Below, in pieces: positions 13,082-18,351 of a DNA stretch of 18,351 nt. The stretch is taken from assembly GCA_017646305.1 (NCBI GenBank), contig JAGCMR010000268.1, positions 1-18,351 on the forward strand, read 5' to 3'. The notes beneath the pieces were generated by a model. That model did not search any database. It saw nothing but the letters and a program-made list of their open reading frames with translations, and was not told the origin of the DNA. Each line of letters starts with the position of its first letter. Position 1 is the stretch's first letter. The position numbers and the translations under genes are program-made. The stretch is from Spirochaetaceae bacterium (GTDB lineage Bacteria > Spirochaetota > Spirochaetia > Treponematales > Treponemataceae).

Positions 13082-13732
13082 ATGGCAAAGCAAAAAATTC
13101 CTGCAACGCCTTCTATTCGGCGTTTACCATCATACCTTCACCTCATCAAGCAAGTGCACTCAGAAGGTGATGATTTTATCTCTGGTACAGTAATTGCCCA
13201 AGAGCTACATCTTGAGCCTATTCAAGTACGAAAGGATTTGGCTATTACCGGTATTATTGGAAAGCCAAAGCGAGGATATCCTGTAGCACCTCTTATTGCT
13301 GCCATTGAGCATTTCCTTAGTTGGGATAACTCAAAGAAAGCCATAATTGTTGGTGCAGGAAATTTAGCAACGGCTCTCACTGGATATTCCGAATTCCAAT
13401 ATCATGGATTAAATTTTGTTGCAGCCTTTGACAAGGATTCCAACAAGGTTGGCCAATCCATCCATGATGTACCAGTGTATTCTATCGATGAAATGAAAGA
13501 GCGAATTGCAGGCTGTGATGTTTCTCTGGCAATTCTTACTGTTCCTTCCACCTTTGCTCAGGAAACAGCTGACATCATTGTAAAATCTGGCATAAAGGCT
13601 ATATGGAACTTTACTAATGCAAAGCTCAAGCTCCCAGAAGATGTGGTTTGCCAGCAAGAGGATTTAACTTCTGGCTATGCCATGCTCTGTGTCATGATGG
13701 ATTCCAAGAGAGAAAAAATCGTACAAGAATGA
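13082..13732 (+). CDS. rex: Redox-sensing transcriptional repressor Rex
   Basis: The product is 216 residues, the normal length. The N-terminal winged helix (about 1-75) has IPATPSIRRLPSYLHLIKQV, then the recognition region EPIQVRKDLAITG and the wing KPKRGYPVAPLIAAI. The C-terminal Rossmann domain has IIVGAGNLATAL (about 88-99) and the acidic end of strand 2, AAFDKDSNKVG, which selects NAD(H). Rex binds operators when NAD+ is high and lets go when NADH rises, controlling fermentation and respiration genes. The only good start is ATG 13082, and there is no properly spaced ribosome site. The stop overlaps the rlmK start by 4 bases (ATGA). Confidence 0.93.
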   Translation: MAKQKIPATPSIRRLPSYLHLIKQVHSEGDDFISGTVIAQELHLEPIQVRKDLAITGIIGKPKRGYPVAPLIAAIEHFLSWDNSKKAIIVGAGNLATALTGYSEFQYHGLNFVAAFDKDSNKVGQSIHDVPVYSIDEMKERIAGCDVSLAILTVPSTFAQETADIIVKSGIKAIWNFTNAKLKLPEDVVCQQEDLTSGYAMLCVMMDSKREKIVQE

Positions 13733-14778
13733 GTTACGAATCTTCTTCAGCAAATTATTCTTCTGAAAAAACTGAGTATCAGGCTCAGTTATTGAAAAAT
13801 CGTCTTACGAAGCGTTTTCAGCACTTGAAAAAATGGGCTCGTCGTAGTGATATTGGATGTTACCGTCTCTACGACAAGGACATTCCAGAGATTCCCCTTG
13901 CCATTGACATTTTTTTTCTACAGAACTCCCCTTCTGACAGCGAGGCAGAAGCCTATTTACGTATCTATCTGTACCAGCGGCCCTATGAAAAGGATGAGGA
14001 AGAAGAGTCTCACTGGCTTGAGGCAATGATTCAGGTGGCAGCCCAAGTGGCAGGTGTTTCCCAAGATAAGGTGGTGGCAAAAACTCGTATGAGACAGAGA
14101 GGAAGCGACCAATACGAAAAGCAGGAAACACAAGAGGCCATTACGGGAATTGTGCAGGAGCAGGGACATAAGTTTTTTGTGAACTTGAGCAATTACCTTG
14201 ATACAGGGCTCTTTATGGACCACCGTCCCCTACGTAAAATAGTGGAAAGTGAAGCCAAAGAAAAGGCTGTGCTGAATCTCTTTTGCTATACAGCTTCCTT
14301 TTCTGTCTATGCTGTAGCAGGTGGAGCCCGTAGAGTAGATTCTGTTGACCTTTCCAATACCTATCTTGCTTGGGGAGAAAAGAATTTTTCCTTGAATGGC
14401 TTTGTTGATGCAGATAAATACCGCTTTACAAGAAGTGATGTGTCTCAGTTTTTAAAAGACACAAGGGACAGTTGGGATATTATCGTTCTTGATCCTCCTA
14501 CCTTTTCCAACTCAAAGAAAACAAAGGATACTCTGGACATAAACCGAGATTGGTCCAAGTTGGTAAATGCAGCCTTAAGTCATCTTAATCCTGGTGGAAC
14601 CTTGTATTTTTCTACCAATAGTCGGCAGCTCCACTTTGATGAAGGGCTTTTAAAACCACCAACAAAGGGAAATGATGTAGCCCAACTTAGGGTAAAGGAC
14701 ATTACCACCGCCACTATTCCAGAGGACTTTCGAAACCAAAAGATTCATCGTTGCTGGAAGCTCACCCTATCAGAATAA
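13729..14778 (+). CDS. rlmK: 23S rRNA m7G2069 methyltransferase RlmK, stand-alone
   Basis: The product is 349 residues from ATG 13729, which overlaps the rex stop. The sequence follows the C-terminal half (RlmK) of E. coli RlmKL: KNRLTKRFQHLKKWARRSDI and CYRLYDKDIPE (RNA-binding start), KTRMRQRGSDQYEK, VNLSNYLDTGLFMDHRPLR, the SAM-binding NLFCYTASFSVYAVAGGARR, VDLSNTYLAWGEKNFSLNG, the catalytic-domain motif VLDPPTFSNSKK, and the end QKIHRCWKLTL. In E. coli this half makes m7G2069 in 23S rRNA and the other half (RlmL) makes m2G2445. Here RlmK is a separate protein with no RlmL partner in the window. Specificity for G2069 is inferred from homology. A longer frame beginning at 13648 is unlikely, because it would run through rex. 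Confidence 0.85.
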   Translation: MSYESSSANYSSEKTEYQAQLLKNRLTKRFQHLKKWARRSDIGCYRLYDKDIPEIPLAIDIFFLQNSPSDSEAEAYLRIYLYQRPYEKDEEEESHWLEAMIQVAAQVAGVSQDKVVAKTRMRQRGSDQYEKQETQEAITGIVQEQGHKFFVNLSNYLDTGLFMDHRPLRKIVESEAKEKAVLNLFCYTASFSVYAVAGGARRVDSVDLSNTYLAWGEKNFSLNGFVDADKYRFTRSDVSQFLKDTRDSWDIIVLDPPTFSNSKKTKDTLDINRDWSKLVNAALSHLNPGGTLYFSTNSRQLHFDEGLLKPPTKGNDVAQLRVKDITTATIPEDFRNQKIHRCWKLTLSE

Positions 14779-14800: not shown

Positions 14801-17800
14801 TTAATTGAGCTGGGTCATAACCTCTACAGTGCAGGCTGCGGTGGCAAGATTGATTTCTTCTTCTTGGAGCTTGATTTCCTCGCTAATTTTTTCGATTCGA
14901 GCTTGGAGCACCTCTCTTTGAGAACCATAACCAGATTGAAGTAATTGGAGTTTTTGATCTAGCTGAGACTGAGCAGTCTGGATTTTCAGCTTCTGGTACT
15001 GGATTTTCAAGAAGGCCATGGTCATGGCATTTATTTGGCGAGAAAGCTCTAGCTTAATGGCAGAACGAGATTGTTCTAGGTCAAGCTCCGCATCCTTTAG
15101 CTGGGAGGTACTGCGCTTGAGCTGGTTCAGTTTTTTGCCCCCGTCCCACAAGGTTGTTTTAATACCTAAAGTGAGATTTGCCACAAGATCCTGTTTTAAA
15201 TCGCTTTCTCCCTTGAATAATTTTTCCATATTGCCATTCAATCCAAAGGAAACTTGCAGCGCAATGTCAGGCTTGCCGTAAATGCTGCCAGATGCCACCT
15301 TACGACCATATTCGGCGGCTTGGTGGAGCTTTTCCAAGATAGCCAAGGATTCTTGGGCGGGGTTCAAGGCAGCAGCTTCCAAAAGGCTAGGTTCTTGTTG
15401 AGACAGCTCCTGAAATGACTCGAAGAATCCCTGGGTCTGGGGAATGTGCATGATTTGAGCACTGTCCAATTGGTGCAATCCAGTTAATTCACGGAGCTCT
15501 TGCAGAATTACAGACTGATTGTGGCGAATCTGCTGGAGGCTCAAGGGAATGAGGGCTTCTTGGGTTTTTGCTTCTAGAACGGCCTGCTCTAAAACGACCC
15601 CTTGCTTTTGTGCGGCTTCCGTCAACTGAACCAATTCCTGGGCATATTCCTGCTGCTGAGTCAACAAGGCTTCCATTTGGGTAAGGGAGCTGAGGACGGT
15701 AATTTGAGCCTTTAAGGAACCGCGCTTTTGTTTTTCCAAGGAGGAAAGCTGAAGCTGACGGACAGATTCTATTGCAGAAAAAATCTTTACACTGTTGGAA
15801 ATTTTTCCCCAAGTGAAAATAGGCTGTTGTAAATCTAGCTGAAAGGTGTAGCCAAAGGTGGGCATACCGTCAAATACCTTTATGTCCGTGTTGGGCAGCG
15901 GCACTTGAATCACCTGCCCCGTGGCTGGGTTTGCAACGGGAATGGAACCAAACTCTCCCTGAGCCAGAGAAATTTCCTTGATGAGGGGATTTGCCATGTA
16001 GCTGCCTGCAAAGGTCAAGTCCACCGTAGGCTGATAGCCTGCCTGGGCATCCTTTGTGTCTAGCTGGGCTTGAATTACTGCTTCACGGGCCTTGTTCAAG
16101 TCAACATTGTTCAAATCCATGGCTGCCAGTAAATCCGTAAAGGAATAAGGTGTAGGCACAGGAGGAAGCTTTTGGGTAAAGCCAAGGGAAGAAGTTCCCA
16201 GGAAAAGAGCTGGAATCAGAAGGAGCAGGAGATTTTTTTTACCACGCTCTTTTTTCTTCTGGAGGCTGTGTAGCTCAGTAACGTAATACAGTACGGGAAT
16301 GATAAAGAGGGTAATTAAGGTTGAGGTAAGCAAACCACCGGCAATTGCCTGTCCCAAGGGTGCATAAATCTCGGAGCCTTCACCCTTGGCAAGAGCCATG
16401 GGAACAACTCCCAGCATGGTGGTGAGGGTGGTCATGAAAATAGGCCGAAGACGGCTTGCAGAACCAGACACCACGGAATCACGAAGCTCCCCTTCACTTT
16501 CACCATTGTCTCCAGAAGCCACATCCTTCTGTGCCCCTCCTCGTTGCCGTAGTAGGTTGATATAATCCACCAGAATAATTCCATTATTCACCACCACACC
16601 TCCTAAAGAAATAACACCCAATAGGGCCACCAAGCTCATGCTGGAGCGGAACAGCACTAGCCCAAGAACAACACCAATGAGACAGAAGGGAATGGTGGCC
16701 ATAACAATCAGTGGCTGTCGGAACCGCTGGAACTGTAGAACCATGACGGTATATACCAAAAACCAAGCAATGGCCAAGGCAGTAATGACAGAAGGAAGGG
16801 AATCCCCCATAAGCTCCGTAATCCCTCCCGCTTGAGTGGAAATTCCTTGGGGCAAGGGATTATTTGCAAGCCACTGATTTGCTCGGCTATCTACCCCCGC
16901 CGTGTTTTCAGACACCAAGGTAGCAGACACGGTAATGGTTTTGGAGCGATTCTTGTGGTTGATTTGGGAAATGCTTTGTTCCTGGTGAAGCTGGCTGATG
17001 TTGGACAGGGACACGGGGATTCCCAAAGAGGAGATTATCTTGATGGAGTTAAAATCCTCCAAGGTAATGGTTTTATCAGTTTTATCAGAATAAAGGTGAA
17101 TGGTATATCGATTATCGCCACTTCTGAGTCGGCCTACATCCATACCCTGAAACAAAATAGCACTAGTTATTCCTGCCTCGTAGCTGGTAATTCCTAAGGA
17201 GCTCATATACTCATGAACCATATCTATAGTGAGGGCTTGGGTGTCAAAGTCTGTATCCATTTCTACAGACACCACCTCCCTATCCTGCTGAAGATACTCT
17301 GCAAAGGCGGAGGCAGAAGCATACAGTTTTTCCATGTCCTCTCCCACAAAAGTAAGGCCATAACCACCACCACCAGAAACATAGCCCAAAAGCTTGTCAA
17401 AGCCGCCGTTAGACACCTTTGCTGTAACCCCTGGAATGGAGCTTGAAATCACCTGCTGCACCTGAAGAATAATTTCGTGAATAGAGCGATTTCGTTCAGC
17501 TACGGGAACCAGTACCACGTGGATATAGCCCTGATTGCTGGCTTCTTGACTGCTTCCCACAGATTCCTTCATGCCCACAAAGAACACTGCGTCTTGTACC
17601 TCTGGTACTGTTTCATACAGTAAATCAGCCACCTTTTCCATCTGGGCATTAGTACTTGCCAAAGGATAGCCACCGGGAAATTTCAAATTGATGTAAAAGT
17701 CACTGTTGTCAGTGGAAGGAATAAAGGCAATACCAAGGGAGCTAAGCACCAAAACCGTGGCCACCAGCACCATCAAGGCAAGAAAAATAATGAATTTCCA

Positions 17801-18351
17801 AGAAGTCAGACTCCAATCCAAGGCTTTTCGATACTTTTCCTCGATGGTGGCCATAATTTTATCCACTGTGCCCTTCATTACTGTAAGCCAGGAATTCTTG
17901 TCATCAGCCTGTAGTTCTGGTGCATCCCCTCCCTGAACAAGACTTACTCCAGCAAGAGCTTTGGGCTTAAGCAAGAGTCCCAGTAAAAAGGGCACAATTA
18001 CCACCGCAGACAGCAAGGAAGCCGTCAAAGCCATAATCAAGGTCAGGGAAACATCCTTGAGAATCATTCCCACCACGCCAGAAAGAGCGGCAATAGGCAC
18101 AAAAACCACCACCGTGGTGGCAGTACTGGCAAAGATGGAAAGTCCCACCTCATCGGCCCCTAAAAAGATTGCTCCTTCAGGATTATTCTTGTATTTTGGA
18201 CTGCCGTAATGACGGAACACCTGCTCAATCATAACGATGGAGCCGTCCACCACCATGCCCAGGGCCACCACCATACCAGAAAGACTCATAAGGTTTACAG
18301 TAATGCCGGCTAGCTTCATGGCAATGAAGGTAAAAAGCAAGGACAGGGGAA
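14801..18351 (-). CDS. RND efflux transporter fused to TolC-like outer-membrane factor, 5' partial
   Basis: One uninterrupted frame covers at least 1,183 residues and continues past the window edge. The first part (to about 16245, some 700 residues) is the RND pump from TM4 onward: GMVVDGSIVMIEQVFRHYG with the TM4 aspartate, KGT…RKALDWSLTSWKFIIFL, a second large periplasmic domain, then VVVNNGIILVDYINLLRQRG, RLRPIFMTTLTTMLGVVPMA and GGLLTSTLITLFIIPVLYYV. After a basic linker (QKKKERGKKN) comes a signal-peptide-like helix (LLLLLIPALFLGTSSLG) and a complete outer-membrane efflux protein of about 460 residues with two coiled-coil repeats (KAREAVIQAQLDTKDAQAGY; SQLDQKLQLLQSGYGSQREV). The partners of a drug efflux pump are thus on one chain. 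The periplasmic adaptor is not in the window and may lie upstream. The substrate is unknown. Confidence 0.88.
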   Translation of the reverse strand, partial: PLSLLFTFIAMKLAGITVNLMSLSGMVVALGMVVDGSIVMIEQVFRHYGSPKYKNNPEGAIFLGADEVGLSIFASTATTVVVFVPIAALSGVVGMILKDVSLTLIMALTASLLSAVVIVPFLLGLLLKPKALAGVSLVQGGDAPELQADDKNSWLTVMKGTVDKIMATIEEKYRKALDWSLTSWKFIIFLALMVLVATVLVLSSLGIAFIPSTDNSDFYINLKFPGGYPLASTNAQMEKVADLLYETVPEVQDAVFFVGMKESVGSSQEASNQGYIHVVLVPVAERNRSIHEIILQVQQVISSSIPGVTAKVSNGGFDKLLGYVSGGGGYGLTFVGEDMEKLYASASAFAEYLQQDREVVSVEMDTDFDTQALTIDMVHEYMSSLGITSYEAGITSAILFQGMDVGRLRSGDNRYTIHLYSDKTDKTITLEDFNSIKIISSLGIPVSLSNISQLHQEQSISQINHKNRSKTITVSATLVSENTAGVDSRANQWLANNPLPQGISTQAGGITELMGDSLPSVITALAIAWFLVYTVMVLQFQRFRQPLIVMATIPFCLIGVVLGLVLFRSSMSLVALLGVISLGGVVVNNGIILVDYINLLRQRGGAQKDVASGDNGESEGELRDSVVSGSASRLRPIFMTTLTTMLGVVPMALAKGEGSEIYAPLGQAIAGGLLTSTLITLFIIPVLYYVTELHSLQKKKERGKKNLLLLLIPALFLGTSSLGFTQKLPPVPTPYSFTDLLAAMDLNNVDLNKAREAVIQAQLDTKDAQAGYQPTVDLTFAGSYMANPLIKEISLAQGEFGSIPVANPATGQVIQVPLPNTDIKVFDGMPTFGYTFQLDLQQPIFTWGKISNSVKIFSAIESVRQLQLSSLEKQKRGSLKAQITVLSSLTQMEALLTQQQEYAQELVQLTEAAQKQGVVLEQAVLEAKTQEALIPLSLQQIRHNQSVILQELRELTGLHQLDSAQIMHIPQTQGFFESFQELSQQEPSLLEAAALNPAQESLAILEKLHQAAEYGRKVASGSIYGKPDIALQVSFGLNGNMEKLFKGESDLKQDLVANLTLGIKTTLWDGGKKLNQLKRSTSQLKDAELDLEQSRSAIKLELSRQINAMTMAFLKIQYQKLKIQTAQSQLDQKLQLLQSGYGSQREVLQARIEKISEEIKLQEEEINLATAACTVEVMTQLN

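Follow-up and report, generated by a model that had tools for sequence, protein, structure and literature searches.

The locus considered here raises the question of how one reading frame could supply two parts of a pump that belong in different membranes. To our knowledge, it is uncommon in bacteria for one chain to contain two proteins with different membrane destinations. The DNA analysed, hereafter the window, is a stretch of 18,351 nucleotides from a Spirochaetaceae bacterium. It contains a single open frame that encodes an RND permease and then a TolC-type outer-membrane factor (OMF), and this fusion is real.

The fused reading frame

The frame (14,801–18,349, minus strand) has no stop across 16,160–16,330 and stays open until the stop codon (14,801–14,803) that follows the OMF part. 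The RND part (16,280–18,349, minus strand) belongs to the RND permeases, matching the Pfam family ACR_tran (PF00873) over residues 1–690 with 443.2 bits against a cut-off of 28, and it ends in the twelfth transmembrane helix (TM12), LITLFIIPVLYYV (16,280–16,318, minus strand). Next comes a basic linker, TELHSLQKKKERGKKN (16,232–16,279, minus strand), which is presumed to be cytoplasmic and, placing positive charge before the hydrophobic core, doubles as a signal-peptide n-region. The core itself, LLLLLIPALFL (16,199–16,231, minus strand), was assigned to a retained OMF signal peptide from hydropathy and from alignment with separate OMFs. It is followed by the c-region GTSSLGFTQ (16,172–16,198, minus strand), with candidate signal peptidase I sites at SLG/F, GFT/Q and TSS/L. 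The mature OMF part (14,804–16,174, minus strand) belongs to the OEP family (PF02321; 90.9 bits against a cut-off of 22), with two matching stretches in the 1182-aa window part, the better at residues 1001–1171. The N-terminal part of the RND permease is cut by the end of the window; a whole version is supplied by P0001, a protein of 1557 aa from Treponema sp. in NCBI.

In an AlphaFold model from 18 sequences (mean pLDDT 78.1; below 60 at TM12 and the junction), helices and strands of the OMF part follow one another as they do in TolC. In Foldseek, the OMF model has the TolC fold (1ek9; E 4.2e-15, TM-score 0.74 by target), and its matches also include OprM and CusC. In AcrB the proton relay consists of two Asp and one Lys. 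The RND part of the window (16,280–18,349, minus strand) has VVDGSIV and VVNNGIILVDY at the positions of this relay and, since these replace the AcrB motifs, its proton path may differ from that of AcrB. On the plus strand, the listed start of the frame 13,648–14,778, which we take to be methyltransferase-like, falls inside the preceding gene (13,082–13,732, plus strand), presumably Rex-like; a likelier start is the ATG at 13,729–13,731, overlapping the stop of that gene.

Conservation of the fusion

A run of eight A residues in the linker (A8; 16,233–16,240, minus strand) is the likeliest place for a frameshift. As this run sits right at the junction, a lost base could have joined two genes on paper, or the contig could be chimeric, and a probable database chimera with a related OMF does exist. 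Nevertheless, an artefact of either kind is hardly credible, because the fused frame is shared by 43 proteins and by independent genomes, and purifying selection acts on the junction. A search with the junction plus OMF recovered at least 43 RND–OMF fusion proteins of 1518–1598 aa, 32–99% identical over that part; it admitted long proteins only and scored the 7992 candidates that share most words with the query, finding 44 in all. In P0001 the same frame is open, and its sequence differs from that of the window even though the searched parts are 99% identical; the frame is likewise open in L001, which is 88% identical to the window. Over the 46 codons of the junction, Ka and Ks are 0.23 and 0.98 against L001, and 0.08 and 0.38 against L002. 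The A8 run thus hides no frameshift, and a chance open frame or a sequencing frameshift there is excluded by the frames of the relatives together with these ratios. The fusion of an RND pump and a TolC-type factor in one frame, as claimed in the initial annotation, is therefore borne out by the open frame, by both Pfam domains and by the 43 similar relatives. The ACR_tran plus OEP pair that it proposed to look for in relatives is conserved (43 proteins, 10 genomes), and the frameshift it had allowed for at the A-runs did not materialise.

The 44th long protein, P0038 (1197 aa), has a PriA-like helicase part in place of the RND permease, followed by a linker and OMF of the fused type. It comes from a single contig of 5092 bases, and the OMF tree places its OMF next to those of P0039 and P0040. 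This contig is probably chimeric, and P0038 is omitted from the counts of fused proteins.

The junction as a retained signal peptide

The initial annotation had described the extra hydrophobic segment as a possible internal signal peptide, and the unfused relatives support this, in that the segment aligns on the signal peptides of nine separate OMFs. Those proteins mostly start with MKK or similar and have a short hydrophobic core and a c-region of small residues. All 20 fused junctions compared, some of them near-copies, carry a net positive charge ahead of the core, and in 18 of them the net charge behind it is zero or negative; the uncharged run is 12–19 residues long in these 20, compared with 11–17 in 11 separate OMFs. 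By its sequence, then, the junction is the old signal peptide of the OMF. Two members carry insertions nearby with the signal peptide itself intact: L083 (3482–8272, minus strand) has a long extra stretch after it, and P0027 has one before it.

To look for a cleavage site we used a strict signal-peptidase-I-like motif, [AGSTVIL]-x-[AGS]-[QED] within 15 residues of the end of the core, with expected counts drawn from the mature parts of the same proteins. The motif occurs in 12 of 14 fused representatives (window included), with 3.3 expected; the corresponding P of 1.5e-6 would hold only for independent rows, and these rows are related. The two that miss it are the window and L001, both with Thr at −1. 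Among separate OMFs the motif is found in 4 of 9 (1.1 expected), and since these are exported anyway, missing it does not exclude cutting. Across all 43 fused proteins the strict motif is present in 16, a loose motif in 43 and GFTQ in 26; the loose rule says little, being satisfied by 14 of 14 representatives with 11.1 expected. With a narrower search range, an earlier scan had detected a site in 16 of the 20 fused junctions, in 4 of the 5 from Bacteroidota and in 10 of the 11 that are unfused. The Thr at −1 in its own subclade is the main weakness of the cleavage reading for the window itself, and it leaves GFT/Q, SLG/F and TSS/L as possible cut positions. The cut after SLG suggested in the initial annotation is thus kept as one candidate among three. 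A signal peptidase family, PF10502, is present in all eight fused genomes searched.

Distribution and origin

The fusion is a feature of a group of gut treponemes. In the genus of L001 it was found in 8 of 10 genomes, seven times as frames of 1528–1596 aa; the fused frame of G007 is open through the junction and broken off by the contig end. The other two genomes of that genus, G002 and G005, gave no match to the fusion. Among 274 genomes of the family, 65 have an OMF relative at E <= 1e-25, and it is fused in ten: the eight above, G439 and G168. The remaining 55 have the OMF in a frame of its own (357–563 aa, with the exception of G085). The G085 frame, at 861 aa, is longer than usual and could be a fusion or a long upstream frame. 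Similarly, in other genomes of the order (G029, G048, G055, G059, G071, G098 and G212), RND-matching frames of 1253–1647 aa exceed the usual length, for example 1397 aa in G029 and 1647 aa, with stops, in G212; these could represent additional fusions or simply frames that extend far upstream.

Gene maps were drawn for 21 loci, 13 of them unfused. An adaptor gene lies directly before the fused gene in all eight loci that show that place (L001, L016, L079–L084). In 11 of the 13 unfused loci, RND and OMF are separate neighbouring genes with one gene or none between them, and no OMF adjoins the RND gene in the other two, L073 and L085. In ten of the 13, a gene of about 350–445 aa whose start resembles that of a lipoprotein follows RND and precedes OMF; L078 has no gene between the two, which there overlap by 14 bases. 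The intervening gene, for example L074:3601–4770 (minus strand), holds the same place in L068–L072, L075–L077 and L086. Its lipoprotein-like start was judged by eye, as in SSCYSVFNGGTGG; the L074 copy gave no NCBIfam match, and the gene is absent from the fused operons mapped.

Trees of the RND and OMF parts were built by a quick method without bootstrap; of the 51 fused rows (8 loci plus 43 proteins) they include 21, near-copies being dropped, and some branches are long. In the RND tree, 20 of the 21 fused rows group together (SH-aLRT 99), and P0044 groups with the unfused L069 (100), so that two changes of state are needed. The same 20 group in the OMF tree (99), where P0044 sits on a long branch between the groups and one change covers all 21 (97). 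One main fusion event is clear from these sequence trees, and a second in P0044 is possible; the two trees do not agree in showing it, since two changes appear in the RND tree and only one in the OMF tree. Separate genes look ancestral because the outer branches of the RND tree are unfused, which suggests that they came first. In the initial annotation, separate genes in close relatives were to speak against a genuine fusion. Such genes do occur, but they appear to be the older state, and the ten best-scoring OMFs among the 65 genomes are exactly the ten fused ones.

Parallel fusions in Bacteroidota

A second family with this architecture came to light through a Haliscomenobacter TolC query, which matched 30 plasmid records, seven of them under a gene named as a CusA/CzcA family RND transporter; a second Haliscomenobacter TolC query matched 15 plasmid records, none under that name. 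In Haliscomenobacter itself, RND and TolC are unfused. Five of the seven CusA/CzcA-named records were retrieved, and all five are single frames of 1446–1464 aa, each with ACR_tran and then OEP in Pfam. A protein search yielded 712 relatives; both domains are present in 119 of the 120 listed, among which three sequences are short (975, 1018 and 1158 aa).

These proteins of about 1450 aa have the same domain order as the treponeme fusion and, like it, keep a signal peptide and an A/Q-type site at the join, the strict site being missed in the window itself. The strict site follows the core in all 36 Bacteroidota representatives (below 75% identity, from the 120 listed of 712), with 5.9 expected, and Ala stands at −1 in 34 of these 36; the five fetched fusions all have the site as well. 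An adaptor gene adjoins in 5 of 5, but downstream, whereas the treponeme adaptor is upstream. The RND part also differs in type: L089, the one Bacteroidota RND scored, exceeds the cut-off of the heavy-metal CusA/CzcA model TIGR00914 (1204.7 bits), whereas P0001 falls below it (414.5 against 701.45 bits). On this difference the two fusion families look independent, and the Bacteroidota fusion probably had its own origin.

Proposed processing of the fused chain

We consider it probable, from the sequence features above, that the fused gene encodes a polyprotein for a tripartite pump of the RND type and that signal peptidase I cuts it into RND permease and OMF. For the fused pump we infer the following topology, cleavage and stoichiometry. 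The RND permease and the OMF would be translated as one chain of about 1557 aa, in which the RND part would insert with 12 helices and leave its C-terminal end in the cytoplasm. The basic segment and short hydrophobic core would next serve as an internal Sec signal peptide and bring the OMF part to the periplasm, and signal peptidase I would cut after the core. The freed OMF could fold and move to the outer membrane, while the spent signal peptide would stay on the RND part as a thirteenth, C-terminal helix. Both products would assemble with the periplasmic adaptor, whose gene lies immediately upstream in relatives, and the effect would be a fixed one-to-one synthesis of two trimeric parts.

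Another reading would have the chain remain uncut, with the hydrophobic segment serving as transmembrane helix 13 and a tether linking the RND permease in the inner membrane to the OMF in the outer one. The dimensions available for judging it are those of a pump from another phylum. According to passages in PMC4754349, the membranes in MexAB-OprM are 23 nm apart, with MexB reaching 7 nm and OprM 10 nm and a gap of about 6 nm between them. The tip of the OMF would thus be about 13 nm from the inner membrane, taking the 7 nm of MexB plus the gap from those passages. Linkers were sought in 19 rows and measured in 14, the motif being missing in L084, L079, P0041 and L092 and falsely matched in L090. 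From the end of the core to the first OMF helix there are 16–24 residues in 8 of the 14 (23 in the window), 33–43 in five and 61 in L083. At 0.35 nm per residue the reach is about 8 nm for 24 residues and about 15 nm for 43, so linkers of 16–24 residues could not bridge the pump as it is known. Fully stretched, the five of 33–43 residues could just reach 13 nm, and that of L083 could reach beyond. In the AlphaFold model about 36 helical residues precede the first long strand of the OMF part, which would place its N-terminus about 5 nm below the barrel, farther still from the inner membrane. A lasting tether is disfavoured, then, as a misfit for eight members and strained in five, and cutting by signal peptidase I fits all. 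The Thr at −1 of the likely site in the window's subclade speaks for an uncut chain, as do the longer linkers of L083 and the five others; what counts against it is that the site has persisted in 12 of the 14 representatives from Treponema and in all 36 from Bacteroidota (from 120 listed of 712), because a mere tether would not need a cut site. We regard the uncut chain as quite improbable. Of the two outcomes foreseen in the initial annotation, the polyprotein split by signal peptidase is thus the one that the sequence supports, and the covalently tied pump suffers from its geometry in 8 of 14 members.

It could also be that translation starting within the linker supplies additional OMF or most of it, the fused frame being mere read-through. 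In Bacteroidota, a Met lies within eight residues before the core in 81 of the 120 fusions listed (of 712 matches) and looks like the fossil start of an OMF gene. In Treponema, a Met within ten residues before the core occurs in only 7 of 43 fusions, and the stretch of the window from TM12 to the end of the core lacks an in-frame ATG, GTG or TTG. By a simple test, a purine-rich sequence resembling a ribosome site precedes in-frame starts in none of 11 other fused loci, among which L079 and L100 are one gene. These sequences make an internal start unlikely in Treponema, and we give the idea as a whole little credence.

If the polyprotein is cut as proposed, it would be a natural case of a fixed synthesis ratio between an inner-membrane pump and an outer-membrane channel, and its signal peptide must function from within some 1500 aa of continuous chain. 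Through the Bacteroidota parallel, the polyprotein model can be tested in cultivable laboratory strains. A bolder and rather doubtful extension is that RND–OMF polyproteins might be a recurrent, undescribed route to tripartite pumps. It would have been taken at least twice, by the Bacteroidota metal pumps and in Treponema, with P0044 as a possible third case; signal peptidase I would separate the parts, and the spent signal peptide would remain on the RND permease as helix 13 and tune the pump much as AcrZ does (PMC7267776).

Comparison with known systems

The RND–OMF architecture is already in databases, as NCBI and other sources name such proteins RND transporters. We found no paper on natural RND–OMF fusions in the open PMC literature, a scope outside which most subscription journals lie, and the available passages of PMC8277102 and PMC2279261 contain no such fusion. 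P0001 scores below the cut-offs of the NCBIfam models for AcrB and other named permeases that it matched: 578.6 against 1250 bits for the best of them, RND_permease_2 (NF033617), and 375.3 against 940.35 bits for efflux permease subfamily 2A0602 (TIGR00915), which we take to be the HAE-1 type.

Close counterparts are the unfused MFP-RND-OMF operons of other treponemes (for example L069, L074 and L078), which have the same gene order as the fused loci. Their RND permeases are 49–57% identical to the fused one in 12 of 13 loci and 41% in L085, and their OMFs are 31–38% identical in nine; they differ in that RND and OMF are separate genes, in 10 of 13 with the 350–445 aa gene between. AcrAB-TolC and MexAB-OprM likewise consist of an RND permease, an adaptor and a TolC-fold channel, and are encoded by separate genes. 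A similar arrangement is that of FbcH, the cytochrome b-c1 precursor of Bradyrhizobium, in which a polytopic inner-membrane protein leads into an internal signal peptide and then an exported protein, with signal peptidase cutting the chain. FbcH differs from the fused pump in that it is a respiratory enzyme whose second part stays in the inner membrane.
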